A stretch of 55,642 nucleotides of DNA from the IMG/VR virus record IMGVR_UViG_3300037042_000951, positions 1-55,642 of that record; one strand, 5' to 3'. Positions 12,043 through 46,400 of this stretch are shown piece after piece. Position 1 is the stretch's first letter. Each line of letters opens with the position of its first letter. Both the position numbers and the translations under genes were made by a program. A model generated the notes under the pieces. It was not told the origin of the DNA. It was given only the letters and a program-made list of their open reading frames with translations, and did no database searches. Source of the stretch: a virus.

Positions 12043-13047
12043 ATGGATAACTATAAGTTTCCTGATGAAGTAGATGACGTAAAAGATGAGGGTAAACCCG
12101 TAGAAGAGGAAGTAGAATCTAAGGGTAAACCCGTAGAAGACGAAGACAAGATCGAAATTGAGATTGAAGATGACACCCCTGTTGAAGATAGAGGTCGTAA
12201 AACTTCAAAACCTGATTTTGTCGAAAAAGTCGAAAAAGATGAATTAGACCAATATTCCCAAGAAGCACGAAGCAAAATTGATGCTTTTAGGAAGTTTTAT
12301 CATGATGAGCGTAGGGAGAAAGAAAAAGCCTTACGAGAGCAGCAAGAAGCTGTTCAAGTAGCTAAAAGCCTCTACGAAGAGATAAAACAGCTTAAAGGTA
12401 GGGTCAATTCTAGCGACGAAGCAGCAGTTAACTCCTTTAAAACAAGTGCCGAGCAGGAATTGGCAATGGCTAAGAAGGAATATAAAGAGGCTTATGACGC
12501 TGGAGATTCGGAAAAATTAGTCGAAGCACAGGATAAATTAACCTCCGCTAAGATGAAAATTGACAAAGCCTCTAGCTACGCTGAAAATATAAATCAACGA
12601 AGGGCTTTACAAGAGCAAGAAAATGAAGTAAAAATACCTCAACAGACGGAAGCAGCGCCTGTCCGTGACCAAAAAGCTTCGGCTTGGCAAGAGCGTAACT
12701 CTTGGTTTGGTCAAGATGACGAAATGACAAGCCTAGCCCTAGGGCTACACGAGAAGCTTGTCAAAGAAAACGGACTAGCATATGCAACCACTGACGAGTA
12801 TTACAAGCGCATAGATGAAACTATGCGTAGGCGATTTCCTGAAAACTTTCAGGATGAAAAAGTAGACGATGGTAGAAACGATGAAAAGGTAGCGGCTCGT
12901 GTAAAACCGAGTACCGTTGTTGCACCTGCGAGTAGAAGTACTTCTTCTAAAAAGATAAAATTGAATACGTCACAGTTATCTATAGCGAAGAAGCTAGGTC
13001 TAACCCCAGAGCAATACGCCCGTGAACTTTTAAAAATGGAGGCTTAA
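12043..13047 (+). CDS. Capsid scaffolding protein (probable)
   Basis: A 334-residue, highly charged protein with an acidic N-terminus (residues 1-60), a long coiled-coil centre (about 80-200) and a basic C-terminal part ending in LSIAKKLGLTPEQYARELLK. This charge layout and the position between portal and capsid genes are those of podovirus scaffolds, which template prohead assembly and then leave. Strong ribosome site AAGGAG. The C-terminal helix would be the capsid-binding end by analogy. Confidence 0.7.
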   Translation: MDNYKFPDEVDDVKDEGKPVEEEVESKGKPVEDEDKIEIEIEDDTPVEDRGRKTSKPDFVEKVEKDELDQYSQEARSKIDAFRKFYHDERREKEKALREQQEAVQVAKSLYEEIKQLKGRVNSSDEAAVNSFKTSAEQELAMAKKEYKEAYDAGDSEKLVEAQDKLTSAKMKIDKASSYAENINQRRALQEQENEVKIPQQTEAAPVRDQKASAWQERNSWFGQDDEMTSLALGLHEKLVKENGLAYATTDEYYKRIDETMRRRFPENFQDEKVDDGRNDEKVAARVKPSTVVAPASRSTSSKKIKLNTSQLSIAKKLGLTPEQYARELLKMEA

Positions 13048-14424: not shown

Positions 14425-15336
14425 ATGGCTATTTCACGCGCACAACTATTGAAAGAGCTCCTTCCTGGCTTGAACGCCTTGTTCGGCTTGGAGTATGCTC
14501 GCTACGGTGAAGAACACAAAGAGATCTACGAAACTGAGACCTCTGAGCGTTCTTTTGAAGAAGAAACAAAACTGTCTGGATTCTCAGCTGCACCAGTCAA
14601 AAACGAAGGTTCTGCCATCGCTTATGACAATGCACAAGAGGCTTGGACAGCTCGCTACAACCACGAAACTATCGCCCTTGGCTTTAGCTTGACTGAAGAG
14701 GCAATTGAGGACAACCTCTATGATTCTTTAGCTGCTCGCTATACCAAAGGTCTGGCTCGTGCTATGTCTTATACCAAGCAGGTAAAAGCTGCTGCTGTAT
14801 TGAATAACGGCTTCTCATCTGCTTATGTAGGTGGTGATGGCGTTTCTCTGTTCAGCACTGCTCACCCACTAGTATCTGGCTCAACTAACAGTAACACCCC
14901 AGCCACTCAAGCTGATTTGAACGAAACTTCGTTGGAAAACGCAGTTATTCAGATCGCCGCTTGGACGGATGAGCGTGGTCTGTTGATCGCTGCCAAACCT
15001 AAGAAGTTGGTAATCCCACCCGCACTCATGTTCGTGGCAACTCGTTTGCTTGAGACTGAATTGCGTGTTGGTACCAACAATAACGACATCAATGCAATTA
15101 AGAACAATGGCTCGATTCCAGATGGTTACACTGTTAACCACTTCTTGACCGACACAAACGCATGGTTCTTGACCACTGATGTACCTAACGGTATGAAGCA
15201 TTTTGTACGTACACCATTGAGCAATTCAATGGACGGTGACTTTGACACTGGCAACGTGCGTTACAAGACCCGTGAGCGTTATAGCTTTGGTTGGTCTGAC
15301 CCACTCGGAATGTATGGATCGAGCGGTTCAATCTAA
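14425..15336 (+). CDS. Major capsid protein, HK97 fold
   Basis: A 303-residue protein with the order expected for Mu gpT-like HK97-fold capsid proteins: helical N-arm, an E-loop-like region (residues 30-70), a spine helix near 85-125 containing SLAARYTKGLARAMSYTKQV, and FSTAHPLVSG followed by beta-rich A- and P-domains ending in RERYSFGWSDPLGMYG. Ribosome site AAGGAG. Codon use is smooth with many common codons, as expected for the most expressed gene. A strong terminator lies five bases after the stop, limiting downstream expression. Confidence 0.85.
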   Translation: MAISRAQLLKELLPGLNALFGLEYARYGEEHKEIYETETSERSFEEETKLSGFSAAPVKNEGSAIAYDNAQEAWTARYNHETIALGFSLTEEAIEDNLYDSLAARYTKGLARAMSYTKQVKAAAVLNNGFSSAYVGGDGVSLFSTAHPLVSGSTNSNTPATQADLNETSLENAVIQIAAWTDERGLLIAAKPKKLVIPPALMFVATRLLETELRVGTNNNDINAIKNNGSIPDGYTVNHFLTDTNAWFLTTDVPNGMKHFVRTPLSNSMDGDFDTGNVRYKTRERYSFGWSDPLGMYGSSGSI

Positions 15337-19078: not shown

Positions 19079-19399
19079 ATGGCAAAGTCTCCCGCATGGA
19101 CTCGCAAAGAAGGTAAGAACCCTGAAGGCGGCTTAAATGCCAAGGGCAGGGCGTCTTACAATGCTGCTAACCCTGGGAAACCAGGGCTAAAGCGTCCACA
19201 GCCAGAAGGTGGCTCAAGGCGGGATTCGTTCTGCGCTCGCATGAAGGGTATGAAACGTAAGTTAACTTCAGCCAAAACAGCTAACGACCCAGATAGTCGC
19301 ATCAACAAGTCTTTACGGGCTTGGAACTGCAAAGAAGGTGGGGCTGTTCGTGGCGGCGGCTGCGAGATTCGTGGCAAGACCAAAGGGAGAATGGTATGA
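19079..19399 (+). CDS. Small basic protein, DUF6321-like, with KGKTKGRMV-type tail
   Basis: A 106-residue strongly basic protein. AWTRKEGKNPEGGLNAKGRA followed by RRDSFCARMKGM resembles the DUF6321 family of aquatic phages and giant viruses (from memory). The C-terminus CEIRGKTKGRMV is a variant of the tail shared with the genes at 19396, 20521 and 21316. It starts three bases after the previous stop and its stop overlaps the next start. Its charge suggests nucleic-acid binding or packaging inside the virion, but this is inference. Confidence 0.65.
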   Translation: MAKSPAWTRKEGKNPEGGLNAKGRASYNAANPGKPGLKRPQPEGGSRRDSFCARMKGMKRKLTSAKTANDPDSRINKSLRAWNCKEGGAVRGGGCEIRGKTKGRMV

Positions 19400-19932
19400 G
19401 ACTTACAGGTCTTAATAAATCAATAACAAATGCGCTTGGGAAACTATCCCCCCAACCTAAACAAACAATTGTAAAAGGTCCTATAGGGTTTCCCGCTGGC
19501 GGTATGGGCGCTGCAATGAGAGGTGGTAGTGGCTTAACCCCAGTCGCAAGTCAAAGTGGTAGTGGCTTAACCCCAGTCGCAAGTCAAAGTGGTAGTGGCT
19601 TAACCCCAGTCGCAAGTCAAAGTGGTAGTGCTATGGGAATTACTCCCCCACCTGGAGGTGCTGGTTTAGCTTCTATGTCAACACAGCAAATGCAAGGGAT
19701 ACTAAAAGGAACGCCAGTAGGTTACTCTGGGCCTAAAATGACAAGTTTTTTTGGAAACAAACCACTTGCACGACACCAATTACAACAACCACCAACGCGT
19801 ATGAAAGAAGGTGGTTCAGTTAAAAATAAAACTAGCAGTAAAACCTACAAATCTGGTGGTTCTGTATCATCTGCCTCTAAACGTGCTGATGGCTGTGCTA
19901 TTAAAGGTAAGACCAGAGGAAAAATGGTATGA
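19396..19932 (+). CDS. Small basic protein with triple 11-residue repeat and shared C-terminal tail
   Basis: The start at 19396 is chosen because it overlaps the previous stop (ATGA); an earlier in-frame ATG would overlap the upstream gene by 79 bases. The 178-residue product has a Gly/Pro-rich N-terminal half, three identical copies of GSGLTPVASQS (residues 44-76), a central linker, then GGSVSSASKRADG and CAIKGKTRGKMV at the very end. That tail is nearly the same in the genes at 20521 and 21316. No known domain. Confidence 0.65.
   Translation: MRLTGLNKSITNALGKLSPQPKQTIVKGPIGFPAGGMGAAMRGGSGLTPVASQSGSGLTPVASQSGSGLTPVASQSGSAMGITPPPGGAGLASMSTQQMQGILKGTPVGYSGPKMTSFFGNKPLARHQLQQPPTRMKEGGSVKNKTSSKTYKSGGSVSSASKRADGCAIKGKTRGKMV
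19525..19623 (+). repeat. Three identical 33-bp tandem repeats in coding sequence
   Basis: Units at 19525-19557, 19558-19590 and 19591-19623 are identical at DNA level and encode GSGLTPVASQS. The lack of any silent change means the expansion is recent, so copy number may vary in the population. Confidence 0.9.
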
Positions 19933-20162
19933 ATGCGTTGGAACTTTGGACTGGCGGACTTACAATATTTATAGCGTTTATTGGGTACGTCATGCACGAA
20001 AAATTCAACGAACTAAAACGAATTGATATTCTATTAAACAAGACAAGAGAAGAGGTAGCCCGTGAAAACGTTACTAAAACAGAAGTTAAAAACATTATGG
20101 AGCACATTGATGCTCGCTTTAACAAGCTTGAAAGCAAAATTGACCAGCTTATTCAAAAGTAA
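19929..20162 (+). CDS. Membrane-anchored coiled-coil protein, 77 aa
   Basis: One N-terminal membrane helix (residues 5-23, LWTGGLTIFIAFIGYVMHE) followed by a charged coiled coil to the end (EHIDARFNKLESKIDQLIQK). This layout resembles small holin-like or virion membrane-anchor proteins; a similar layout occurs in the lysis cassette at 32180. Its start overlaps the previous stop (ATGA). A holin, antiholin or structural role cannot be separated by sequence alone. Confidence 0.65.
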   Translation: MNALELWTGGLTIFIAFIGYVMHEKFNELKRIDILLNKTREEVARENVTKTEVKNIMEHIDARFNKLESKIDQLIQK

Positions 20163-20165
20163 ATA

Positions 20166-20519
20166 ATGCCAAGTACATCTAAAAAGCAACATAAATTCAT
20201 GGCGGCGGTAGCCAAAAATCCATCGTTTGCCAAAAAAGTAGGAGTACCTGCTAGCGTTGGGCAGGAATTTTTAACTGCCGACAAAGGCAAAAAATTCAAT
20301 AAAGGTGGAGCTATGAAACACGAAGACATTAAGATGGACAAGAAGGTTGTCAAAAAAGCCGTTGGTATGCATGATAAACAACAGCATGGTGGTAAAAAAA
20401 CTAATCTAGCTACTCTTAAAAAAGGTGGCTCGGTATTTCGTAAAGCCGCTGACGGTGTTGCTACTAAAGGCAAGACCAAGGCTACTATGATTAAGATGAA
20501 TAAAGGCGGAGCTTGCTAA
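20166..20519 (+). CDS. Small basic two-module protein with ADGVATKGKTKA tail
   Basis: A 117-residue, Lys-rich protein built from short modules. The N-terminal module SKKQHKFMAAVAKNPSFAKK with VGQEFLTADKGKKF is common in aquatic phages, and the second module MDKKVVKKAVGMHDKQQHGG recurs in others (from memory). It then has KKGGSVFRKAADGVATKGKT, a diverged version of the shared tail, and an extra MNKGGAC end. No enzymatic motif. Probable nucleic-acid-associated or packaged protein. Confidence 0.65.
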   Translation: MPSTSKKQHKFMAAVAKNPSFAKKVGVPASVGQEFLTADKGKKFNKGGAMKHEDIKMDKKVVKKAVGMHDKQQHGGKKTNLATLKKGGSVFRKAADGVATKGKTKATMIKMNKGGAC

Positions 20520-20520
20520 T

Positions 20521-21315
20521 ATGAAAAAGAAGATTCGTAAGTTTCAAGAAGGCGGCTTTAGCGCTGAGCAAGAAGAATGGCTAGGCGGAGCTGACCGTAC
20601 TGACCCATATATTTTGGCTCGCATGCGTAGAGCCGTGCCTGATAAGAAACCTATGGCTTCTGAAATGGGGGATGATTCCCCTGCAGGTAAATCTGGTTAT
20701 GGCGAAGAAAATGAATTACCGACCACTACTAGAGTCCCCAACGCCCCCACTAAGACCTCTACTGCGACTGTATCTAAACCCCCTGTTAAAAAACCTAGCC
20801 AAGCAGAAATAGATGCAGAGAAAAAACGCATGGAAGACATTGGCAAAAAGCAAGGTCTAAAAGGGTTTTATCCAGAAGAAATGCTTATTGGCGGCGGTGG
20901 TTTAAAAGTTCTACGGGAAGCAGGTAAAGCATTAGCTGGAAAAATAGCTGGAAACCGTGCATTAAAAGAGTATGTAGTGCCAAAACTACCTGCTCCTTCC
21001 TCTGGCTCTGGTACTCCTGCTTTACCCTCACCTACTCCAAAACTGACTTATGACAAGGCTGGTGCAAGGGCTAAAGCTCGTACCGAGCGGGCAGAAATGC
21101 GTGATGAGACTATGCGTAGAGAAAATGCTGAGCGATACGGCGTAACAGATACTGAAGCCCCTGGATATGAAGCACTACGTGGCGCGTTCATGCGTAAGGG
21201 TGGTAGAGTAAAAACTAAGACCAAATCCTATAAATCTGGCGGTACAGTATCCTCGGCTTCTAAACGAGCAGATGGTATTGCTACCAAAGGTAAAACCCGT
21301 GGGAAGATGTGCTAA
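20521..21315 (+). CDS. Hypothetical protein with shared C-terminal tail, 264 aa
   Basis: A 264-residue basic protein. It starts MKKKIRKFQEGGFSAEQEEW, has a low-complexity Pro/Thr/Lys middle (residues 60-110), a helical segment with a Gly-rich stretch (MLIGGGGLKVLREAGKALAG, about 121-140), then a charged region and the tail YKSGGTVSSASKRADG plus IATKGKTRGKMC. The N-terminal domain has no recognised relatives here; only the tail is shared with neighbours. One base separates it from the previous stop. Confidence 0.65.
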   Translation: MKKKIRKFQEGGFSAEQEEWLGGADRTDPYILARMRRAVPDKKPMASEMGDDSPAGKSGYGEENELPTTTRVPNAPTKTSTATVSKPPVKKPSQAEIDAEKKRMEDIGKKQGLKGFYPEEMLIGGGGLKVLREAGKALAGKIAGNRALKEYVVPKLPAPSSGSGTPALPSPTPKLTYDKAGARAKARTERAEMRDETMRRENAERYGVTDTEAPGYEALRGAFMRKGGRVKTKTKSYKSGGTVSSASKRADGIATKGKTRGKMC

Positions 21316-21849
21316 ATGCCGATTGAGCCTGTAGACCCTTCTAAAAAGGTTGGCGATGGTAAGAGTGATAAATACACTCCTCCCAAGGAAAAGTTCGGAC
21401 CTAGCGAGTACGATAAGGCAGCAGAGAAAGTGAAGCAAGATAACGAAAAACAACAAATTCGCAAGATGGGGGATGCTTTAGATAAAGCAGGTGTACCGCT
21501 CCCTAAAAAAGAGGCGTTCCCAAAAACCACAGCAGCATTTGAAGAAATTGCTAGATCTGATGCAGAGCGTGAAACGCGTAAAGCTAGGGCTGAAGTAAGC
21601 AGGATAGCAGGAGAGCAAAAAGCAAAAGTTAAAGCTGAAAGCCCCCGCACGTATACGGAAAGACTGCAAGATATGGGCAGACTGCCTAAACCTAGCGGTG
21701 CAGTTGGGGCAAAAATTGAACTTGAAAAAGGCATGATGGGTAGTAATATGCCAAAACCTAAGTTAAAAGCTGGTGGAGTAGTATCCTCTGCTTCTAAACG
21801 GGCTGATGGGTGTGCAGTTAAAGGTAAAACTAGAGGAAAAATGGTATGA
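21316..21849 (+). CDS. Hypothetical protein with shared C-terminal tail, 177 aa
   Basis: Begins immediately after the previous stop. The 177-residue product is a charged helical protein (coiled-coil-like, residues 25-120) ending LKAGGVVSSASKRADG plus CAVKGKTRGKMV. The body is unrelated in sequence to the other tail-bearing proteins. The long open frame on the opposite strand here is a composition artefact. Confidence 0.65.
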   Translation: MPIEPVDPSKKVGDGKSDKYTPPKEKFGPSEYDKAAEKVKQDNEKQQIRKMGDALDKAGVPLPKKEAFPKTTAAFEEIARSDAERETRKARAEVSRIAGEQKAKVKAESPRTYTERLQDMGRLPKPSGAVGAKIELEKGMMGSNMPKPKLKAGGVVSSASKRADGCAVKGKTRGKMV

Positions 21850-22118
21850 GACCTAGTCGTGGAATGGGAGCTATAAACCCTTCTAAAATGCCTGGTGCCA
21901 AGAAAAAGGCGCGTAGGGACGACACCGACTTTACCCAATTTAAAGAAGGCGGTAAGGTTAATGCTGCGGGTAATTACACCAAACCCAGTTTGCGTAAGCG
22001 GATTGTTTCTCAGGTGAAAGCAGCTGCAACACATGGTACTGGCGCAGGTCAATGGTCAGCTCGTAAAGCGCAGTTAGTAGCTAAAAAATATAAGGCGGCT
22101 GGCGGTGGCTATAAATGA
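21846..22118 (+). CDS. Small basic protein with QWSARKAQL motif, 90 aa
   Basis: A 90-residue, strongly basic protein. TQFKEGGKVNAAGNYTKPSL leads into KRIVSQVKAAATHGTGAGQW and SARKAQLVAKKYKAAGGGYK, a short domain very common in aquatic phages and also in giant viruses, possibly the DUF5872 family (from memory, unverified). The GG-x-V element before it matches that of the tail-bearing neighbours. ATGA overlaps on both sides. Likely nucleic-acid binding. Confidence 0.7.
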   Translation: MRPSRGMGAINPSKMPGAKKKARRDDTDFTQFKEGGKVNAAGNYTKPSLRKRIVSQVKAAATHGTGAGQWSARKAQLVAKKYKAAGGGYK

Positions 22119-22363
22119 GTGGATTGGCAAAATCTCAGCGTTCTTTAAAGGCTTGGGGAGACCAGAAGTGGACAACCAAGTCAGGGAAGAAGTCGTCCGA
22201 GACAGGAGAAAGGTACCTGCCAAAAAAAGCAATCGAAGCCCTAAGCCCACAGGAGTACGCAGCAACAACACGAGCAAAACGAGCAGGAAAAGCACAGGGA
22301 AAGCAGTTCGTCCCGCAACCAAAAGCAGTAAAAGCAAAAGTAAAACCATTTAGGAAAATTTAA
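22115..22363 (+). CDS. Small basic protein, 82 aa
   Basis: This frame (MSGLAKSQRSLKAWGDQKWT) is chosen over an overlapping one because it overlaps the previous stop by ATGA and contains GERYLPKKAIEALSPQEYAA and TTRAKRAGKAQGKQF, a domain seen in many aquatic phages and giant viruses (from memory). It is strongly basic. With the 90-residue protein before it, it forms a pair of small nucleic-acid-binding-type proteins of unknown role. Confidence 0.7.
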   Translation: MSGLAKSQRSLKAWGDQKWTTKSGKKSSETGERYLPKKAIEALSPQEYAATTRAKRAGKAQGKQFVPQPKAVKAKVKPFRKI

Positions 22364-22377
22364 GAAAGGTATTAAAA

Positions 22378-22659
22378 ATGATTACGTTCACTCTTGATAA
22401 CAGAGCAGCAGAAGCAATGATGGCAACACTTAATGCCAATATCCCAAATGCTTCTTTTGTCCAAGAACTAAATGTTCAATACACTGAACAAACTGTTGTA
22501 GATATAATTGTGCCGCCAGAGCCAGTAGCTGAACCAGCTGAACCAGTAGTTGAGGCTGAGCCAGTAGTTGATGCTGAGCCAGAAACATTAGCTCCTGCTG
22601 AGACGTCAGCCCCACCAGAAGATGCACCAGAGGGATTAATTACGCCAGAGCAAGAGTAA
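22378..22659 (+). CDS. Hypothetical protein with acidic Pro/Glu tail, 93 aa
   Basis: An N-terminal 45-residue beta-alpha segment (MITFTLDNRAAEAMMATLNA) is followed by an acidic Pro/Glu/Ala-rich tail built from imperfect PAEPVV/AEPVVDAE repeats. It is the only acidic protein in the 19-22 kb basic cluster, so it might bind a basic neighbour; that is inference. Ribosome site AAGGTA. Confidence 0.6.
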   Translation: MITFTLDNRAAEAMMATLNANIPNASFVQELNVQYTEQTVVDIIVPPEPVAEPAEPVVEAEPVVDAEPETLAPAETSAPPEDAPEGLITPEQE

Positions 22660-22662
22660 ACC

Positions 22663-23601
22663 ATGACTACATCCAGCACTACTACGTTTAATTTAGACCT
22701 CAATAACCTTGTTGAAGAGGCTTTTGAGCGTTGTGGCGCTGAAATTCGTTCTGGTTATGATATGCGGACTGCCCGCAGGTCTTTAAATTTATTGACTATT
22801 GAGTGGGCAAACCGTGGTATTAACCTGTGGACTATTGAGCAAGGTCAGATTCCAATTGTTACTGGGCAGCTGTCTTACCCCATTCCTTCTGACACAATTG
22901 ATCTTTTAGACCATGTAATTCGTAATGGGTCTGGGCAGAATCAGATAGATATTAATATCAGCCGTATTTCGGAGTCTACTTACTCTACGATTCCTAATAA
23001 GAATGCGCAGGGAAGACCTATTCAAGTCTGGATTAACCGTCAATCGGGTATGACTAACGCAGTTGCAGCAACTACTTTAATAGGGAATGGCACCTCAATT
23101 ATTCAAATTAACCCAACAGATACCACAATTGTAGTTGCCAATGCTTCTGGGTTAGCTACATCTGGCTATATTAAGATTGATTCAGAAACGATTGGTTACT
23201 CAAATGTATCAGGTAATCAACTATTAAATTGTTCTCGTGGGCAAAACAGTACAACCGCAGCCATACATTTTGCAGGCGCTCCTATCTATGTTCAAAACCT
23301 ACCAAATATCAATGTTTGGCCTACTGGAGATGGTGGGGGTCCGTACACATTTGTTTACTGGCGGTTAAGAAGAGTTCAAGATGCTGGTAATGGCGTTACA
23401 GAACAAGATATTCCTTTTAGATTTTTACCTTGTATGGTTGCTGGGTTAGCTTTTTACTTATCCCAAAAGTTACCAGATGCGTTGCCAAGAATGCAGTTTC
23501 TAAAGGCAGAATACGAAGAGCAGTGGTTAATGGCTTCTACAGAAGACAGAGATAAGGCAGCTAACCGATATGTACCTCGAAGTTTATATTATTCGGGGTA
23601 A
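22663..23601 (+). CDS. Head-tail adaptor, P22 gp4-like, with an inserted beta module
   Basis: A 312-residue protein. The N-terminal part (EEAFERCGAEIRSGYDMRTA, WANRGINLWTIEQGQIP) and C-terminal part (YVYWRL-type segment, FRFLPCMVAGLAFYLSQKLP, FLKAEYEEQW) match the helical gp4-like adaptors that seal the portal. Between them, residues about 130-215, lies an inserted beta module (GYIKIDSETIGYSNVSGNQL) of the same type as the EYISYSGI modules of the 953-residue protein. Position after the small protein cluster and before tail genes fits. Confidence 0.75.
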   Translation: MTTSSTTTFNLDLNNLVEEAFERCGAEIRSGYDMRTARRSLNLLTIEWANRGINLWTIEQGQIPIVTGQLSYPIPSDTIDLLDHVIRNGSGQNQIDINISRISESTYSTIPNKNAQGRPIQVWINRQSGMTNAVAATTLIGNGTSIIQINPTDTTIVVANASGLATSGYIKIDSETIGYSNVSGNQLLNCSRGQNSTTAAIHFAGAPIYVQNLPNINVWPTGDGGGPYTFVYWRLRRVQDAGNGVTEQDIPFRFLPCMVAGLAFYLSQKLPDALPRMQFLKAEYEEQWLMASTEDRDKAANRYVPRSLYYSG

Positions 23602-23604
23602 ATC

Positions 23605-24027
23605 GTGCCTAGTAAATTTAGTAGTGGTAAATATGCAATTGCCGAATGTGATCGGTGTGGGCAGCAATATAAGTTAAAACAGCTTAGAAAGCTGATCGTT
23701 AAACAACAAATATACGACATTAAAGTTTGTCCTACTTGTTGGGACCCAGATCAACCGCAGTTATCGTTGGGGCTATATCCAGTAAATGATCCACAGGCAT
23801 TACGAGAGCCAAGACCCGATATTAGCTATGTAAATTCAGGTTTAAATGGCTTACAATTGACTGAAACGATAACCACTAATGTTGACAGTAACGGGCAGGT
23901 TAGTGGGGGTAGTAGAACTATCCAGTGGGGGTGGAACCCTGTGGGCGGGGCTAGTAGTTTTGATAGTGAGCTAACCCCTAATAATTTAATTGCAGTAGGG
24001 CAAGTAGGTACGGTAACGGTAACATAA
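23605..24027 (+). CDS. Zinc-ribbon virion-region protein, 140 aa, GTG start
   Basis: Starts at a GTG. Two knuckles, C15/C18 (CDRC) and C42/C45 (CPTC), form a zinc ribbon; the rest is beta-rich and Gly/Ser-rich to the end. It lies between the gp4-like adaptor and small basic proteins. Similar proteins occur in aquatic phages at this place (from memory). A structural adaptor role is possible; no evidence for transcriptional function. Confidence 0.65.
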   Translation: MPSKFSSGKYAIAECDRCGQQYKLKQLRKLIVKQQIYDIKVCPTCWDPDQPQLSLGLYPVNDPQALREPRPDISYVNSGLNGLQLTETITTNVDSNGQVSGGSRTIQWGWNPVGGASSFDSELTPNNLIAVGQVGTVTVT

Positions 24028-24037
24028 GGAGATTATT

Positions 24038-24220
24038 GTGGGATACAAAAAAGATGCAGATGGCGTAGTTAGCAAAGGTAAGACTGATGCTAAAGTTTTC
24101 CCTAATGACGGTGCAAAAATCGTTGATAAGGGTCCAAAAGGTAGCAAAAGTAGCCTTAATAAGAATATGAAGTCTATGGGTCGTAATATGGCTCGTTGCG
24201 CTAATCAAAGGGGTCGATAA
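24038..24220 (+). CDS. Small basic protein with N-terminal KGKT motif, 60 aa, GTG start
   Basis: GTG start with AAGGAG six bases upstream. The product begins MGYKKDADGVVSKGKTDAKV, which places the ADG-x-x-x-KGKT element of the shared tail at the N-terminus, and ends MGRNMARCANQRGR. Its last base overlaps the next start. Basic; function unknown. Confidence 0.6.
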   Translation: MGYKKDADGVVSKGKTDAKVFPNDGAKIVDKGPKGSKSSLNKNMKSMGRNMARCANQRGR

Positions 24221-24513
24221 TGGCTAAGTACTCTAAAAAAGTAATGGGTAAAGAAGTTGGCAACGCTGAAGTATATGCTGAGCCACATACCATGTCAGGT
24301 AAAAAAATTGGTACAAAAGAGGCTATGAAGGCTGTTAGCCGTCCCCCTGATCCAAACACCTTGTTGGCTAAACAATCGACTCCAGGTGGGCAGAACGTTG
24401 CTCGTGTCAGCATGGGTGATCCAGCTAGTGATAATGTCAAAACAACTGGTATCAAAATGAGGGGCACGGGCGCAGCAACTAAAGGTGTGATGTCTCGTGG
24501 ACCAATGGGCTAA
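24220..24513 (+). CDS. Small basic protein, 97 aa
   Basis: A 97-residue Lys/Gly-rich protein (MAKYSKKVMGKEVGNAEVYA start) ending MRGTGAATKGVMSRGPMG, which again carries an ATKG element close to the C-terminus. Start overlaps the previous stop (TAATG). No domain recognised. Confidence 0.6.
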   Translation: MAKYSKKVMGKEVGNAEVYAEPHTMSGKKIGTKEAMKAVSRPPDPNTLLAKQSTPGGQNVARVSMGDPASDNVKTTGIKMRGTGAATKGVMSRGPMG

Positions 24514-28088: not shown

Positions 28089-28922
28089 ATGCCATATTCT
28101 TCTTTAAAACTCGATTTAATGGTTACTGGTACCCAAAACAACCTTTGGGGGGACATTACAAATCTTAATATTGGAACAGCGCTTGAAGAAGCTATTGTTG
28201 GTAGAGCATCAGTAGTAATAGCTAATCCGCCAGCGTCTCCTCTAGCTGCAGATTTAACTTTAGTTGATTCCCCTGCTAGTCAAGTGGCTAGACATTTTAT
28301 ATTAGATATAACTTCAGCGGGCACTTTAGTTTCTACGCAAACTGTTCAAGTACCATCAATTGATAAGCCCTACATTATAGAAAACAACACTACAGGCGGG
28401 CAAGCGCTTTTAATTAAAACTGCTGGTGGTGCTGGAGTTACAGTCCCAGCTGGTACTAAAACACTAGTGTATGCATACAATGATGGTGTATCTAATAACG
28501 TAGTTTATGGAATTAATTACCTAAGTGCTCCTACTATTACAGGAGGAACTTTTACAGGCCCAACATTAAGCCAACCTATAACTAACGGTGGTAAATTAGT
28601 AGTAAGTGCTCTTGGTACTTTATTTACAGGTACAACAACTATTAATCTAGCAATTGCTCAGGTCTATACAGCCACTATAACTGCTAGTAATGTAATTACT
28701 TTTGCGTTTTCTAATGCACCACCAGCTGGGCAGTCTCAAGTAGTTTTACTACGATTAACAAACGGCGGTAGCGGAACAATAGTCTGGCCCGCAGGTACTA
28801 AGTTTGCAAACGGAGGCACTGCTCCATCTCTAACAATATCTGGCGTAGATATGCTAGGTATTTATTATGACGTTACTACAACTACATATATGGTATTTGT
28901 TATTGGGACAGACATACAATGA
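28089..28922 (+). CDS. Tail fibre-like protein, 277 aa
   Basis: A beta-rich 277-residue protein beginning MPYSSLKLDLMVTGTQNNLW, with a short helical collar-like segment (NIGTALEEAIVGRASVVIAN) and Thr/Gly-rich strands to the end (TTTTYMVFVIGTDIQ). The N-terminal GTQNNLWGDITNLNI segment is typical of fibre proteins in aquatic phages (from memory). Its stop overlaps the start of the RCC1-like gene. Confidence 0.65.
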   Translation: MPYSSLKLDLMVTGTQNNLWGDITNLNIGTALEEAIVGRASVVIANPPASPLAADLTLVDSPASQVARHFILDITSAGTLVSTQTVQVPSIDKPYIIENNTTGGQALLIKTAGGAGVTVPAGTKTLVYAYNDGVSNNVVYGINYLSAPTITGGTFTGPTLSQPITNGGKLVVSALGTLFTGTTTINLAIAQVYTATITASNVITFAFSNAPPAGQSQVVLLRLTNGGSGTIVWPAGTKFANGGTAPSLTISGVDMLGIYYDVTTTTYMVFVIGTDIQ

Positions 28923-31456
28923 GTTCTGAACTTTTAATTATGGGTAGTTCACCACAGTCTTATACATTAGATGCGTGGGGTCAAAACCCAAGGGGACAGC
29001 TTGGAGAAAATCCACATTATTTTGGGTTTCAACAACTAACAACAGGGGCGTTATCTACAGAAAATTTTGTTCAAGTCGAGAGTTGTGGTTTTGCTCATTT
29101 TGCTTTAACTAGCGGGGGAAACTTATATGGCTGGGGCAATTCAGAAGCTATAGGAAGTGGTGTTTTTCTTAATTATGTTAGTTATTTAACACCCCAGTTA
29201 GTATTGTCTAATGTAGCCAAGTTTTCTATTGGGAATGGGCAGTTTGCTTCTCCCTCCGCTGATTATATAGTTATGGCTATTAAAACAGACGGCACTTTAT
29301 GGATGACAGGAAACACTAATTACAATTGGGGGAGAACCTCGTTTACATATGCTACAGATTGGAATATATGGACCCAAGTAAATACGGTTGGGTCAATTTG
29401 TCAAAAAGTATCAGTTTCTAAAAATGATTTTGGGACTAGTAGTTTATTTGCGTTATTACTAAAAACTGACGGCACTATGTGGGCTATAGGAAACAATGCT
29501 AATGGGCAGCTAGGGCAAGGCAATACAACTAGTAATTTTGCTGTTTTTCAGCAAGTAAAAGGTACTGGTGGGGTTGGATTTTTAACTAACGTTGTTGATA
29601 TATCTGCAGGCGGATACAGTTCATATGCTGTTATTAGTTCTGGCGCTGCTTATGGGTGGGGGCTTAACAGTAATGGAGAAGTTGGTGATGGGACTACGTT
29701 TCCAACCAATGTAACTTCGCCTTCACAGATTAAGTATGGGGCTGTTTTAGGTGGTGCTAATGTATCTACAGCTGAAAAAATATTTGCATGGAGTAGGGGT
29801 GCATACATAACTGTAACGCCAGGATCAGGTCCAGTTGCCTATCAATTAAAAACTAATTTATATGGGTGGGGTAAAGCAGATAGTACTAACCTCGCACTAA
29901 CTGATTTTTGGGCTGGTTCTAGTACAACTGCTGCGCTACCTATAATCGGGGCTAAAAATTCAATAGGTGCACTTCTTCCTGAGCCACTTACTGTTACTAA
30001 AGTGATGGGGTCTTTATTTGCAAATACAGCAATTATAACTAGTGGTGGTTTGTTGCTTAATTGGGGTGGTATTGCTAATAATGCGTGGGGGCAAGCTGGT
30101 AGAAGCGAAGCTCTTCAATATGGCAGTATTTTATACCCAACAGCTGTAGATGCTGCCACAAATTGGTCTTTTATACCTGAAGTAGAAGCTGCTACAAACG
30201 ATTTTACCTATGGGTTTAGCGCACCCGCAGCTCATACGTTAGCTGGCAAGTCAAATAATAAAATTTATGGAACAGGGGCTAATATTCAACAGTCATTCGG
30301 TATATATAATAAAAATAATAGCCCTACTCAAATTGGAACAAATCGCCAATGGATAACTTTATCTTCTGGTGATGACGAAGTTAGTCTATTTATAAATAAT
30401 CAAGGTGAACTTTATGGTGTTGGAAATAACACTCTTTCGCCACTTGGAAATTTAGGAAGTCCATCTCGCTTTTCGCCTACACAGTTATCTGCCATAACTA
30501 CTCCGTGGGTTGACGTTTCTACAAATGGTTATTCAAGCGCAGCTATTCTTAAAGGCGGTATTTTATATGCTTGGGGATATAACAATCAAGGCGAGTGTGG
30601 TTCTGGTGTACCAACTATTACTTCAATTTCGCAAGTAATAAACTATACTGGGGGACTTCCAACTAGTGGAGCATTATCTGTATTTATGGGTGGCTTTATT
30701 AGTCAGGGGTGGAGTTCTGTTCTTTACGATAACGGAAAAGTTTATACTTCTGGCAGTAATTTATATTATACGCTTGGTAATGGCGGTGGTGGCATTTTTA
30801 ACCGTGTTTTTTTTGCTCCAGTTCAAGATTACACTTTTAATGATTTACAAAATGTAGAAAAAGTTTGGTATGGTTATGCCCATGCTTTCGCTAAATTAAG
30901 TGTCGGTGATCCAGCATCTGGTGGCAACAATATATTTGCGTGGGGGGATAATAGTACAGGCGCACTAGGAGTTGGAAACACAAGTGTTTATACTCGTGCA
31001 ACACCATCTGGTGTATATAATCCTTTCCTTGAAATAACAAAAATTGTAGGTGGAGATGGATTTTCTATAGTCCTTTTTGCTGACGGAACCGTTGAAGCGA
31101 CGGGGACAAATACTTATGGGCAGTTAGGTAACGGCACTACCACGAATACTACGGTATTTGCTCCTGTAAGAAATTCAACTAATACGGCGGATTTAATTGA
31201 TGTTGTTGATATTGGTGCTACCCGCGACTCCGCATTTGCTGTTCTCTCAAATGGTGACGTTTTCTTATGGGGGAGAAACACTATAAATACTGGGTTTCCA
31301 GCTAAAACAGCTGATCCTTATTATGGGCTTCTTGTTCCAAGTGACAACACAGCGTTTTTTACATTACCTACATTAGTTGGAAATTACCCAAACGTAGCTT
31401 CTATACCAACAACTCCTACAGCAATTAATGCTGCTTTTTTATTAAGGAATATATGA
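28919..31456 (+). CDS. RCC1/BLIP-II-like beta-propeller protein, 845 aa
   Basis: An 845-residue protein with many repeats of the RCC1 type: LxxWGxNxxGQLGxG followed by a strand. Clear copies include DAWGQNPRGQLGEN, WAIGNNANGQLGQG, YGWGLNSNGEVGDG, YAWGYNNQGECGSG, FAWGDNSTGALGVG and EATGTNTYGQLGNG. RCC1 repeats fold as a seven-bladed propeller; the number of copies here could make two. In phages such a domain is best read as a tail-associated receptor-binding protein, given its place between a fibre gene and a small possible fibre chaperone. The start overlaps the previous stop. Confidence 0.8.
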   Translation: MSSELLIMGSSPQSYTLDAWGQNPRGQLGENPHYFGFQQLTTGALSTENFVQVESCGFAHFALTSGGNLYGWGNSEAIGSGVFLNYVSYLTPQLVLSNVAKFSIGNGQFASPSADYIVMAIKTDGTLWMTGNTNYNWGRTSFTYATDWNIWTQVNTVGSICQKVSVSKNDFGTSSLFALLLKTDGTMWAIGNNANGQLGQGNTTSNFAVFQQVKGTGGVGFLTNVVDISAGGYSSYAVISSGAAYGWGLNSNGEVGDGTTFPTNVTSPSQIKYGAVLGGANVSTAEKIFAWSRGAYITVTPGSGPVAYQLKTNLYGWGKADSTNLALTDFWAGSSTTAALPIIGAKNSIGALLPEPLTVTKVMGSLFANTAIITSGGLLLNWGGIANNAWGQAGRSEALQYGSILYPTAVDAATNWSFIPEVEAATNDFTYGFSAPAAHTLAGKSNNKIYGTGANIQQSFGIYNKNNSPTQIGTNRQWITLSSGDDEVSLFINNQGELYGVGNNTLSPLGNLGSPSRFSPTQLSAITTPWVDVSTNGYSSAAILKGGILYAWGYNNQGECGSGVPTITSISQVINYTGGLPTSGALSVFMGGFISQGWSSVLYDNGKVYTSGSNLYYTLGNGGGGIFNRVFFAPVQDYTFNDLQNVEKVWYGYAHAFAKLSVGDPASGGNNIFAWGDNSTGALGVGNTSVYTRATPSGVYNPFLEITKIVGGDGFSIVLFADGTVEATGTNTYGQLGNGTTTNTTVFAPVRNSTNTADLIDVVDIGATRDSAFAVLSNGDVFLWGRNTINTGFPAKTADPYYGLLVPSDNTAFFTLPTLVGNYPNVASIPTTPTAINAAFLLRNI

Positions 31457-40469: not shown

Positions 40470-43400
40470 ATGGCTGATTTACAACAGCTATATAGCGCCC
40501 TAGAAAAAGCGGATGCTGCTGGTGATGTTGCGTCTGCTAAACAACTAGCCGACTGGATACGTGCTGAACAAGGCGGATTTAGCCCAGCTGCACCAGAAAA
40601 ACTTGAACTACCCCCTGTAGAGCCAGCAACTGGTTTCAGTTCTTTTATTCCCGCCGTTAAACGTGGCGCGTTGGGTCTCCAGTCGCTTGTGGCAGACGTA
40701 GCACCAGCAATGGCTGGGCGTGTAGCAGAGCGTCTAAATGTACCTGGCGCAAAAGAATATGCTGACCGCCAGATGCGTGAGGCTCAGGAAGCCCAAGAGT
40801 ATATACAACAGCGCTATCCCTCAGCCGTATCTAGTTATAAAGACATCAAGGGCGGGGGCGACTTACTAACATACGTAGTTGAGTCGGTTGGCGAGTTACT
40901 TCCTTCAATGATTCCTTCTGTATTAACGGGTGGCGCAGCGGGTATTGCTGGGCGTGGTGCAGCCATTGCAGCTAGAGAGGCGGCTGAAAAAGCTTCGTTA
41001 GAGACCGCTAAGAAGAGCCTGCTCACGTACAGTGGGTCTAAGCTTTCCCAACAGGAATTAGTTAATTTAGCCACGGCAGACGCTATTAAAGCGGGCCAGG
41101 CTGCAGCACAGAGAGCGGTGCTCAAGTATCAAGCTGCTGGTGCAATAGGCGGTTCGGCTATGCAGAACGTACCTGAGGTTTATCAGAATATTGCTGAAGA
41201 AACAGGCAAGGAAGACCTTGGCGCTGCCCTTCTATTTGGCGGCTTTAACTCTGTACTAGATGCCATTACGCCTATAACCTTACTACGCAAAGCCAAAGGT
41301 GTTGGTCTTACCGAGAAAGAACTTATTGGCGCATGGTACAAGCGGGCAGGCAAAGGGGTATTAACTGGGTTTGCTACAGAAGGCGCAACGGAAGCAGTCC
41401 AAGAGATGTCGTCAGCTGCAGCTGAAAAGTTTGTTGACGAGAATAAGAACTTCTTTACTGAGAAGAATTTTGAGCGGTTTATCAATGCTGGACTCAAGGG
41501 TGGTATTGGTGGTGGCGCAGTTAGTGGTGTGGCAAACATACCGTTTGGTAGAAAAGAAGAACCACCTACGCCTTCTATACCTGAAACCCCTGAAGCCGTT
41601 ACCCCTGCAATGCCTGGCGCAGAGCCTGCTAAACAAGGTGCGCTTTCAAACGATGACATAGAGAAGTTTTTAAATCCTGAGGCAAAAGAAGAAGTTAAAA
41701 AAGAAGAAGCCAAGAAAGTAGACCTTGATTCAGATACTTTTGATATGCCTACTGCTTCAGAAAAAATTGCATCGCTAAAAGCAGATAACGACAGAATTCA
41801 GAATAAACTAGCTACAGGGCAATATAAAAACGCCCCAGCAGTTAGTGCTGCAAATGCAAAGATTGCTAGGCAGAAGACAGAGATAGAAACACTTGAAGCT
41901 AAATTAGCTGAAGGAGATAAAAATGTTACTGACAGAACTGACGTTACAGGAGGTGGAGTTAGCGCTGAAGTATCTGGCGGACCCAAACCAAGTGGAACCC
42001 CCGAAGAAATTGCAGCATCTGAGCGATCTGGAGTGGTTGACGCTGGAAGTGCTGCAGAGCAGGCTGCTGTTGGAGATGCAAAACAGCAAGGTACATTAAC
42101 TTCAACAAAAGTAATCCACGACAAAGAAAAAGATGTATGGAATTACAACGATGATAAAGAATTAGTTGAATCTGCGGGACCAACAACAGCTATACAACAC
42201 AAGTCGGGTATTGCTAAAGAACAAGGTATTACTAAAACATACATTGATGGCAATAGAGTTACTTTTGAACTAGACAACGGTGGGGACATTGCCGTTAAAT
42301 TTAATAAAGGTAGAACCTCTGTATATTTAAACAAACCAGACAAAATGATGGGTTTTAGACCTGCTGGGTCTTTTCATGAAGACATTGACAATATACAAAA
42401 AGACAGCACTACTTTTGGGTTTGATAAATTACAAGATTTTGTACCGCCTAAACTTGCAAAAGCAATTCAAAATGCAGCCAAGAATATTAGTAGCTCCACA
42501 AAAGAAGTTGCAGATCCTTCTGAATTTATTAAACCTTTCTTAAAAGAAGCTGTAGATTCTGACGGGTACTCTGCCTTATGGGGTGAAAGAGAAAAAAGCG
42601 CTGAACAATTTAAAAAAGAATTACAAGGACAAGGAACTGCGCCTACTACCAAAAAAACAGTTACTCCTACTACAACTAAAAAAGAAGAAGCTCCAGTAGA
42701 CCAAGCTACTTTAGTAATACCGCCTGGAGACAAAGAAGTAGCAACAGAAGTAACTCCGCCAAAGGCTGAATTTAAAGGTGAATCTGCGTTTACCTCAGGG
42801 ACAGAAAGACGGTTTATCGAGCCTAAAGTAACTGAAGAAACTTTATATCCTAAAGCTATTGCTTTACGAGAAGCACAAAAATCAAAGCCAAAACCTACTG
42901 TTGAAGAAGTTGCTAAAACTAAACAATCTGTCAAAAACGTTAAAGAGGCGGCAACAGATGTAATTTCTGGTAAAACAGCTGATAGATATAATGCTTTAAC
43001 CCCAGAAGAAAAGGCTATGGTGGACACCGCCGTAGCAAAATACAAGTCGCTATTGGAGTTTAAAGAAGCTAAACCCATGAGCAAGCGGAAGGAAAAACCT
43101 CCGCCAGGCGTTATTTATAAGCCAAGACAGTACAACAAAATACTCAAAGAAGAAAAAGCCGCAGCTGAGAAAGCCGCTACTGAACCTCCTGTACCTAAAA
43201 AACTGTCTCTGATAGAGGAAAGGATGGCTGAGCTTAGAGCTATTCCTTCTTATGGTTCCGCTAATCTAGAAGCAATAGAGGGATTGCGTGGCGGTACTAC
43301 GATTGGGCTTATGTCCAACCTAATGCATGGCGACTTGCGTGGTGCGCTGCAAGAAATAGTTCAAGATACATCTGGGCAATTTACTAAGCTAGATAGAATG

Positions 43401-46400
43401 GTAGCTAAACGCCTACTACAATCAGACACCCTACCTACCCTGCGTGTAGTGCCAACCAGCGAACTTAATGGTAAATTGGGGCAGTATGATGCAGCTACAG
43501 ATATAGCTTCTATTAGTGAAGACGCAATGACTTCACATGTTGTGCTACACGAGACACTACACGGATTTACCCTAGCTATCATCAAAGCGCACAAAGATGG
43601 AGTCAAGTTTAACCAAGGTGTTGCTAATCTTGAGAAGTTATACAACCATTTAAAAGAGACCTATCCAGACTTAAAAGATAAATATGGCATGAAGAACCTT
43701 GCAGAATTTGTCTCTGAGGCTATGTCTAACCCTGAATTCCAAGAGCAGTTAAATGCTCTCCCATACGAGCGTGGCAACTTAGTAATTAATGCTTTTGTTG
43801 AATTTGTTAAAGATGTTTTAAATGTACTTGGTATTGGTCCAGGTAAAGACTTTACAGCCCTAGCTTATGCCCTAGTGTCCGCAGAAAGTATATTAACTGA
43901 GGGGCGTAGATTAGAGGCTACAAACCCACCACCAGCAACGGCAGCCCTTGCACCAGATGCTACTGCTAGACCAGAACCTGAGCCACCTACATACAAAGAA
44001 GGAACTACCAATCTAAAAGAGTGGGCAACAAGCATACCTAAGGTTGCTGATACACCCGCTGCGTCAATTAAAAAAGCGCTTGGGGAAAATGAACGATATG
44101 GCACATTTCAACTCGTGGCAAAACTTTTACAAAATAGTCGCCGTGCTATACAAAACTGGGAGAACCGTCTAGAAAAAGCTAAAAAGATTATGTATTACGG
44201 CGAGAACCAAAACAATATATTTGGCGATATTAGCGCTTCTTCTGGTAGAGCTGAACACTTTTTTAACTTCTACCTTGCTACGGCTTCCAAAGATTTATAT
44301 GATGCAATTGGTAGATATGCTAACGCACGAGGTTTGTCAGATCAAGACGCTCTTATAGAATTACAACAAGTATTTGTTTCACTCCACGAACCAGAGCGCC
44401 GTAGAGCTAAGTATGTATTAAATGTTCCGTTGCCTTTAGAAGCAGCTATGGAACGTAAGAAGATTATGTCTTTGGTCAGGTCTAATCAGATCAATGAAGA
44501 ACAAGCTGAACGACTGAGAGCAAGACTAGACGCATTGGTAGAAAACCCTGCTAATAAATTAAAAGAAGGTGTTAAGGGATATGGCGCAAACCCAGATGAA
44601 GGATTTTCTTATCTTCCTCAAGACGAACAATCAGCCTACTATAACGTAGTCAGCGGAATTGACCCTAAAGTATTTAAGATGGCTATAACAGAACTATATG
44701 AGCCAAATAAAGCGTTAATTGACCCTATACAAAAAGCTATTAAAGTACTCCAAAAAGGAACTAAAGAGCTAGACACAAGAGCTAACTATTGGGCGCAACC
44801 TGTTAATAACGTAGTTGCATTTTACGGGTACGACAATTACGTGCCGTTTAAAGGTAAGCCTGGAGAAACACAAAGCAAAATAGATGACGAGTTAGAACCT
44901 CATGGCAAAGTTAATGGTAGAGAATTACAAGAAGCACCTTTTGCGTTTGAAGGTCGTTTATCTGATCCTGATAATCCTTTGCTACAGACTTTGGCTGACG
45001 GAGTTCGGTCCGCTTTACGTGCTGGGCGTGGCGGCACTATGTATGGGGCTGATGGTAAACCTCTACTAGATAGTAAGGGCGAGCCTACCCAGTTTGGTAC
45101 AACACACGCTATAGTAAACGCAATTAAACAAGGCTTGATTGAAGGCAAGCCTGTAGAGACTATAAGCTTTGCGCAACGGTATGATGCTGCAGTTTTAGAA
45201 AAGCTAAAACAAAAAGGCGAAAACAACTTCTTCCACTACAAACCAGACGGCAGTATTGAGATATGGTCAATTGAAGATAAGGCTCTAAGAGAAGCAATAC
45301 GCCGTACCTATCAACAAAACAATCCTTTAGTGGACACATTCTCTAGAATCACCAGCTGGATTGGTCAAGGACATACTCGCTACAACCCTGCTTTTGCGCC
45401 TAAGAACTTCGTTGCTGATACTTTGGCTAACGCTGGAATTATTGGTGCTGAACTAGGTGTAAGCAAGTTTGGGGGAGTTATAGGAGAAGTAGCTAAAAAC
45501 GGTCTAGGCAAAGCCTTCACGTTCTCACGGTTGTATGGCGCTAAGAATTTTGCAGAAATAGAACGTTTAGCCAAAACTGATGACTACATCAAAGACATGT
45601 ATGAGTATGTCAAGGGTGGTGGAAAAGTATCTTACGTATCAGGTATTGGTGCGCAAAGCCAATTCCAAAGGATGCAAGAGACGCTTGGAAGATCCAAAAT
45701 AGCCTCCACTAAGGAACAGATTGATTCAGTTATTGATACCTTCTGGGCAGAGCCTTTTGAATTGGCAAGCCGTGTAGCCGCTTATAGGGTGACTAAAGCA
45801 GATTACATTAACAACCAAAAAATGAGTCCAGAAGCAGCTAAGACAAAAGCTATTTCATACGTCAAGAACCTAGCTAACTTTGAACAGACAGGTGATTACG
45901 GTAAAGCGTTGGGTGCATTCTTCGTGTTCTTCCGTGCGTCAGCAACTGGAGCAGTTAGAGCCATTGATGCTTTAGCGCCAATATTTGTAGACCCAAATAC
46001 TGAATTCCTAAGATTGCCAGAGTCAGTACGCTTGGACCCAGAGGCTAAGAAAACTTTCTTTGAGAATCATTACAAGCAACGCCGCACCGCCCAAGCCATG
46101 TTAGCTGCAATTGCTGGTACTGGGGTAATGGTTTATTACATGGCGCTACTAATGTCTGACGATGATGACGAAGGAAGAAACAGAACCGCTATAGATGACA
46201 TGGATAGATGGACTAGGTTTGCACGGTTCCCCATCCCAGGTACAGATGTAATCGTTCAGATTCCTTGGGGCTTTGGACTGGGTGCTTTTGCTGCAGCTGG
46301 GGCACAGGTCGCTTCGCTATTAGTAGGCAACAGTTCTTTTGGGCAAGTCTTTAACAATATTAAAGATGTTGGCATGGACTCTTTCCTGCCTTTACCTACG

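Follow-up and report, generated by a model that had tools for sequence, protein, structure and literature searches.

A C-terminal tag shared by small proteins of an uncultured phage

We examined 55,642 nucleotides of viral DNA (IMG/VR record IMGVR_UViG_3300037042_000951, positions 1 to 55,642; hereafter the window), in which several small basic proteins encoded between the capsid and adaptor genes carry nearly the same C-terminal peptide, referred to here as the tag. Strict copies close three plus-strand genes of a variable slot, namely gene 19396 (19396..19932, 178 residues), gene 20521 (20521..21315, 264 residues) and gene 21316 (21316..21849, 177 residues). Their tails, which have the form K-x-GG-x-V-SSASKRADG-x-A-x-KGKTRGKM-[VC], lie at 19849..19929 (KSGGSVSSASKRADGCAIKGKTRGKMV), 21232..21312 (KSGGTVSSASKRADGIATKGKTRGKMC) and 21766..21846 (KAGGVVSSASKRADGCAVKGKTRGKMV). 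Diverged forms were located on the same strand in two neighbouring proteins: an optional tag at 19331-19396 (KEGGAVRGGGCEIRGKTKGRMV) in the DUF6321 protein (19079..19399), and, in the KKQ protein (20166..20519), a tag in C-proximal position (20418-20516, KKGGSVFRKAADGVATKGKTKATMIKMNKGGAC). A 60-residue protein (24038..24220, plus strand), recognised as an open reading frame (ORF) and by family comparison, carries the motif at its N-terminus (ADGVVSKGKT, 24056-24085), and the 97-residue protein of gene 24220 (24220..24513, plus strand) ends in a related second tag at 24460-24510 (RGTGAATKGVMSRGPMG). A sequence-only reading of the window had listed six copies, in genes 19396, 20521, 21316, 19079, 20166 and 24038, and each was located where that reading had placed it.

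A tail profile was built from the pattern-found tails of the window and of 120 listed IMG/VR loci (see below), and was searched against approximately 10,000 ORFs. It matched gene 19396 at an E-value of 5e-12, gene 20521 at 2.7e-12 and gene 21316 at 1.4e-12, values that are slightly flattered because the strict tails of the window make up at most 3 of the 107 profile rows. Weaker matches were obtained with gene 20166 (2e-5) and gene 19079 (0.0035). The copy in gene 24038 is weak by itself (E 0.57), and the motif is present in dozens of relatives of that family. In the whole 55,642-base record, a DNA pattern for the motif gave five matches, all on one strand and within 19,885-24,084, and a reversed control pattern gave none.

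The three strict-tagged bodies, that is, the proteins without their tails, match neither each other nor any common family, in agreement with the earlier description of them as different. No Pfam or PHROG family convincingly covers any of them; gene 19396 has a unique body with no more than a single chance-level match, and among the 120 loci listed the body of gene 20521 has relatives in L050 and L006 only and that of gene 21316 a single relative, in L117. The start of gene 19396 is the ATG at 19396, which overlaps the preceding stop codon, and the longer ORF with a TTG start is a product of the ORF lister. This gene also holds three tandem SGSGLTPVASQ repeats with a unit of about 33 bases (19525-19630).

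Distribution of the tag

IMG/VR was scanned at the DNA level for ADG-x-A-x-[K/R]-GKT, and at least 120 stretches were returned; two narrower patterns likewise returned at least 120 each. After dereplication the scans together yielded at least 604 motif copies on at least 284 contigs, and among the matches listed the motif ends exactly five residues before the stop codon in 393 of the 604. For the first 120 loci listed the corresponding figure is 121 of 231, and the tail profile classified the copies at these loci as C-terminal (185), C-proximal (97), N-terminal (36) or internal (6). Since the scan patterns fix the residues of the motif core, an independent sample was taken through the major capsid protein (MCP). 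Thirty-three loci of this sample span the interval, with the motif in 32 and a strict C-terminal tail in 27, and among its 46 distinct tails G-13, G-8, K-7, T-6, D-14 and G-4 (counted from the C-terminus) are each kept in 37-41; as the sample consists of the closest MCPs, these figures describe the clade and not phages at large.

The sequence-only reading had proposed a profile search as a check, and its expectation was borne out: the same tail occurs on unrelated bodies in a very large number of uncultured phages, and the genes concerned form a cluster that lies between those for capsid and adaptor. In 16 long phage records (approximately 1 Mb), matches were found in 13, and multiple matches in one record stand close together. 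A tblastn search of 50,697 phage records with the 27-residue tail and two versions of the second tag gave zero matches, and among 84,980 species genomes scanned, only four contigs, all from metagenome-assembled genomes, had matches. Among the named or cultured relatives examined, the sole recognisable tail is a degenerate one (RDGCAKRGRTKGRFI, profile E 5.5e-4) in protein UMO75986.1 of Planktothrix phage Pag-Yong1, which places the strict tag in a clade that has no available isolate.

The tag is retained when the body is replaced

The tag is a separable module, which is present or absent as a unit and is kept while the body in front of it is replaced. Clustering of 505 slot bodies gave 140-245 clusters depending on the threshold, and the exact number is soft in that the loosest clustering chains 223 of the 505. 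The DUF6321 proteins fall into two classes, of which 177 members end at W-x-C and 47 extend exactly 23 residues further, the extension being the tail. In the window protein the match to PF19846 (E 1.8e-18; 67.4 bits, curated cut-off 28.5) ends at residue 82, leaving the tail outside the domain. The portable tail of the earlier reading is thus borne out by the clusters, by the swaps described below and by DUF6321 proteins with and without the tail. That reading had also named two findings that would speak against it: full-length homology was examined and not found, and the tail is not covered by a domain of either Pfam or PHROG.

Bodies turn over much faster than their neighbours. When contig pairs with 95-100% identity in gene 22663 were compared, a homologue in the other contig was found for 51 of 165 slot bodies (31%), and at 85-95% identity for 81 of 886 (9%), whereas in the same comparisons DUF6321, gene 21846, gene 23605 and KKQ were found practically always, with median identities of 78-95%. 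Over some 7.5 kb the contigs L180 and L212 are approximately 94% identical in DNA, and this identity is interrupted by a single replaced stretch, the body of a tagged gene; homology returns in the last 87 bases (29 codons) of the gene, that is, in the tail. Two further body swaps were seen between L253 and L324, and L026/L101 and L083/L222 are similar. All pairs together gave 48 genes with a replaced body and a homologous 3' end, the latter having a median length of 26 codons (interquartile range 21-29), which indicates a constant unit of about 25 residues that includes the K-x-GG-x-V lead.

Conservation of the peptide and overlap with a ribosome-binding site

The sequence-only reading held that the peptide is kept by selection and is not a recent DNA copy, pointing to third-position differences in the SASKRADG codons. 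These were confirmed by codon comparison of the three best window copies, which differ at several such positions. In tail pairs from one phage the codons of the invariant residues agree in 47% of cases, and in 32% in a subset chosen for low codon identity; the agreement expected from contig codon usage is 0.365. Agreement close to that expected from usage argues that the motif core is kept as a peptide, its third positions being free.

The end of the tag has an additional feature. Of 433 tails, 67% use GGA or GGG as the codon of Gly -4; the corresponding shares are 11% at Gly -13, 2% at Gly -8 and 27% for background ORFs. The ATG of the next gene lies near the stop codon in 428 of 450 tails, mostly with a one- or four-base overlap. 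In the window, AGAGGA at 19915-19920, within the tag of gene 19396, is positioned as a Shine-Dalgarno sequence 8 bases ahead of the ATG of the next gene at 19929, and the tag of gene 21316 holds the ribosome-binding site and start overlap of gene 21846. The bias at Gly -4 together with the adjoining ATG indicates that the final tag codons double as the ribosome-binding site of the next gene, and the conservation of the final residues may be partly due to this role. A ribosome-binding site inside the tag would allow the body to be exchanged between start codon and tag with downstream expression undisturbed.

Residue agreement among tails of one phage

A single partner common to all tagged proteins of a phage predicts that their tails agree with each other at variable positions. 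Strict tails of the same phage agree at position -10 with a frequency of 0.42, versus 0.29 between phages (5 of 2000 shuffles as high), and at position -9 with a frequency of 0.71 versus 0.56 (6 of 2000), using one pair per contig, codon identities no higher than 0.45 and shuffles within GC bins (n=72). No excess was detected at -12 and -3 in the same test. A scan without selection on tail type showed the same trend at -10 and -9, and a comparison of strict tails with copies in C-proximal or N-terminal position, with pairs ordered by type, gave no agreement signal.

The interval and the proteins that it encodes

Using the window proteins as queries, we read a shared gene order in more than 100 contigs: portal, GroES-like, scaffold-like, 13048, 13515, MCP, in some cases a cement-like gene, DUF6321, membrane/coiled-coil, KKQ, one to four tagged genes, 21846, 22115, 22663, 23605, the protein with the N-terminal motif, 24220 and adaptor. 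The tagged genes are confined to this late capsid-to-adaptor interval, which by position is a region of late head morphogenesis, and among the relatives compared none of the MCP, adaptor, scaffold or other conserved neighbours carries the tag. All the following genes are on the plus strand. The window MCP (14425..15336; phrog_371, a phage head protein family, 6.7e-23) is 70% identical to the annotated MCP of Pag-Yong1, and its relatives at 57-70% identity include, besides Pag-Yong1, Pelagibacter phages HTVC023P and HTVC027P, DSL-LC04 and Roseobacter phage CRP-902. Ahead of it lies the scaffold-like protein (12043..13047), assigned by sequence and position, which has a strongly acidic N-terminus. 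Within the interval, a small membrane/coiled-coil-like protein (19929..20162) and the two small basic proteins that close the variable slot (21846..22363; phrog_17747 and phrog_14910) are conserved and untagged throughout, and an adaptor-like protein follows downstream (22663..23601; PF24175 SU10_adaptor, 28.9 bits, cut-off 27). By eye, on the basis of CxxC motifs and with no profile search, we also noted HNH-endonuclease-like ORFs in the variable interval (L146:4213-4707, L215:9435-9845, L310:9547-10005 and L311:6760-7206), which might be drivers of body exchange.

The tagged bodies have a median length of 108 residues, are basic and contain a fraction of large hydrophobic residues of approximately 0.21, versus 0.30-0.35 in MCP and adaptors. 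Pfam and PHROG searches with 96 tagged proteins revealed the KKQ module and, in two members, DUF6496, and no other indication of function. The DUF6321 tail is predicted by AlphaFold to be disordered (predicted local distance difference test score below 50), and the predicted KKQ structure has an ordered N-terminus and a loose remainder; a Foldseek search with the KKQ model returned only noise (best E = 2), and sequence searches of solved structures with MCP, DUF6321, KKQ and the second adaptor gave nothing useful. The net charge of the tail is about +5.6, and that of the first 80 residues of the scaffold has a mean of -12 in 72 relatives. DUF6321, KKQ and the products of genes 21846 and 22115 are also strongly basic.

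The KKQ protein (phrog_16759, 7e-18; phrog_22033, virion structural, 5.5e-9) consists of a 43-residue N-terminal module (20166-20297) and the C-proximal tag. The module is 72% identical to PHIKZ165.1 of phiKZ, where it is free-standing, and approximately 55% identical to the N-termini of 121Q gp51 and of homologues in CBB and GAP32; the module is thereby shared with the N-termini of virion proteins from Rak2-like jumbo phages. The CBB homologue is annotated FDG95_gp322 and as similar to GAP32_317; the published numbering is consistent with this, IF-3 being CBB_318 and IF-3 of GAP32 likewise lying four genes ahead of 317. In CBB virions, 30 peptides of CBB_322 were detected, a coverage of 43.6% (PMC5259590). 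This detection comes closest to virion evidence, and it concerns the module beside the tag and not the tag. The 43-residue module may itself be a portable virion module.

Possible functions of the tag

Body swapping, the all-or-none tail of DUF6321 and the virion module on the neighbouring KKQ protein together suggest that the tail is best regarded as a targeting or packaging signal. We tentatively favour the interpretation, on which we are nearly evenly divided, that it acts as a docking tag: exchangeable proteins would be led by it to one partner in head assembly that they have in common, most probably so as to be loaded into the head. The core R-A-D-G-[CI]-A-x-[KR]-G-K-T-[KR]-G-x-[MFI] with its K-x-GG-x-V lead would act as a discrete C-terminal docking tag and would route small, basic, mostly disordered and quickly exchanged proteins to one partner during head assembly. 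That partner would be a component of the assembling head, our first guess being the acidic scaffold or the inner capsid, and the acidic N-terminus of the scaffold-like protein is a plausible candidate receptor. The tagged proteins would then enter the head as the internal proteins of T4 do, and their bodies would vary since they would act against varying hosts after delivery. A more specific scheme, which we regard as possible and hold with appreciably less confidence, is a cargo cassette of a widespread family of aquatic podovirus-like phages, in which a tag matched within each phage to a single receptor would load one to four disposable proteins into the head, new bodies would be inserted by recombination between start codon and tag, and the tag DNA would supply both homology and the ribosome-binding site of the next gene; the RGxGAATKG tag described below would be a parallel in other phages.

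Several observations weigh against head loading through a docking tag. We found no virion proteome for any phage with the strict tag, and no tagged body, disordered as these look, matches a known effector. The motif also occurs in C-proximal, tandem and N-terminal positions, which means that some contexts do not require a free C-terminus, and the signals of T4 and P1 are N-terminal, unlike the tag. Old duplication or gene conversion could partly yield the residue agreement among tails of one phage, and the second and third scans picked contigs by tail type. When flanking proteins were used in a nearest-neighbour test to predict the K/R state of the tail, the answers were unstable (highest for gene 13515, 60 of 83, though not convincingly so), and for one of the two sets prediction from the MCP did not exceed chance.

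The same genomic and motif evidence would fit a docking peptide whose proteins end up outside the capsid or at the neck, or are mere assembly factors, and the slot does lie between cement-like and adaptor genes and its bodies are disordered and basic. We consider this unlikely, since quick turnover and small basic bodies are closer to the internal proteins of T4 than to decoration proteins, and the scans of the 96 tagged proteins revealed no decoration-protein homology. Slightly less probable still is a basic peptide that binds nucleic acid or neutralises charge and so condenses the packaged DNA. The charge of the tail and the strongly basic neighbours listed above agree with such a role; however, in the MCP-selected sample the basic residues are conserved to about the same degree as Asp, Gly and Thr, the tail is an all-or-none unit of 23 residues, and the agreement within one phage at -10 concerns a mostly uncharged residue. 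Conservation at the level of DNA, with the tail serving as ribosome-binding site of the next gene and as homology anchor for recombination, is consistent with the codon bias at Gly -4, the adjoining start codons and the return of DNA homology in the tail at body swaps. As the sole cause it is already insufficient and in our judgement very improbable, because the bias is limited to one of three Gly positions, the core codons are near-random, and N-terminal and C-proximal copies cannot act as ribosome-binding site of a next gene. That the tagged proteins are diverged members of one family, or the tail a part of one known domain, is scarcely credible: disordered bodies diverge quickly, which weakens homology searches, and loose single linkage does join 223 of 505, but contigs with 94% DNA identity hold wholly different bodies with sharp edges at start codon and tail, and the tail lies outside all Pfam and PHROG domains and is present on or absent from the same DUF6321 body.

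Comparison with known systems

The cargo-loading peptide of encapsulins is C-terminal, occurs on unrelated cargo and is bound by a capsid-type shell; these shells have no genomes and their cargo consists of folded enzymes. The phage tag resembles it as a C-terminal peptide appended to unrelated proteins. Polymorphic toxins likewise combine a constant module with an exchangeable partner region, but the constant part is a large N-terminal trafficking region and not, as here, a short C-terminal peptide.

In T4, capsid targeting sequence (CTS) peptides are found on small, basic, non-conserved internal proteins (PMC9026906). The resemblance of the tag to the IPI-IPIII/CTS system lies in a short constant terminal peptide, several small basic proteins with unconserved bodies, late head genes and an arms-race reading (PMC9026906). 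A short constant terminal peptide on non-homologous bodies and, by gene position, a late head morphogenesis region were both found here. The T4 signal is N-terminal, about 10 residues long and removed by the gp21 protease, whereas the tag is about 25 residues long, has no known cleavage and is C-terminal in most copies (393 of 604 lying five residues from the stop among the matches listed). As N-terminal placement is a defining feature, the tag falls outside the T4 CTS family. In P1, an N-terminal signal directs DarB to the capsid (PMC9024508), and the likeness is again a terminal peptide as capsid-directing signal (PMC9024508). The Dar signals are N-terminal and have no consensus among themselves, unlike the single consensus seen here over many bodies.

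No described Pfam or PHROGs family was matched in sequence or architecture, none of the open papers found names DUF6321 or such a tag, and, judging by the searched databases and open literature, neither the tag nor its body swapping seems to have been described before. By class of mechanism this would be a new form of terminal-tag cargo targeting. If the tag loads cargo, it marks a large unannotated set of exchangeable proteins, with hundreds of body families already from a small sample, as candidate early host-takeover or counter-defence factors of aquatic phages, and it would provide a portable C-terminal tag for studies of protein loading into phage heads. Whatever the destination, replacement of bodies with a kept C-terminus shows how cassettes are exchanged in a tight late operon with the next gene unharmed, and the tag accounts for many otherwise orphan small basic phage proteins.

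Other tails and other genes

RGxGAATKG, the second C-terminal tag, ends 8 residues from the stop codon in 132 of 144 cases. Its carriers, noted in the window and in L416, L446, L450, L470, L480 and L483, are mostly relatives of gene 24220 and also include other bodies, and it occurs as well in contigs that showed no ADG motif. The two tags have in common the core R-x-x-G-x-A-x-K-G and occurrence on several bodies, including the product of gene 24220 in the window; they differ in spacing and end, and in that the second belongs mostly to one family. Four slot proteins (L060:3321-3866, L061:2943-3596, L100:7406-7981 and L152:4023-4472) end in GWGxARG[AS][RK]xxK.. after the same GG-x-V lead, which by its sequence is a possible third exchangeable tail.

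Farther along the window, 28919-31456 encodes a large RCC1-like repeat protein (phrog_4219, 3e-40), and RCC1-like proteins are contained in the virions of Rak2-like jumbo phages (PMC5259590). A protein of 2,214 residues (40470-47114) is weakly similar in its first part to virion RNA polymerase (phrog_2206, 6.5e-4) and to a virion structural protein (phrog_6958).

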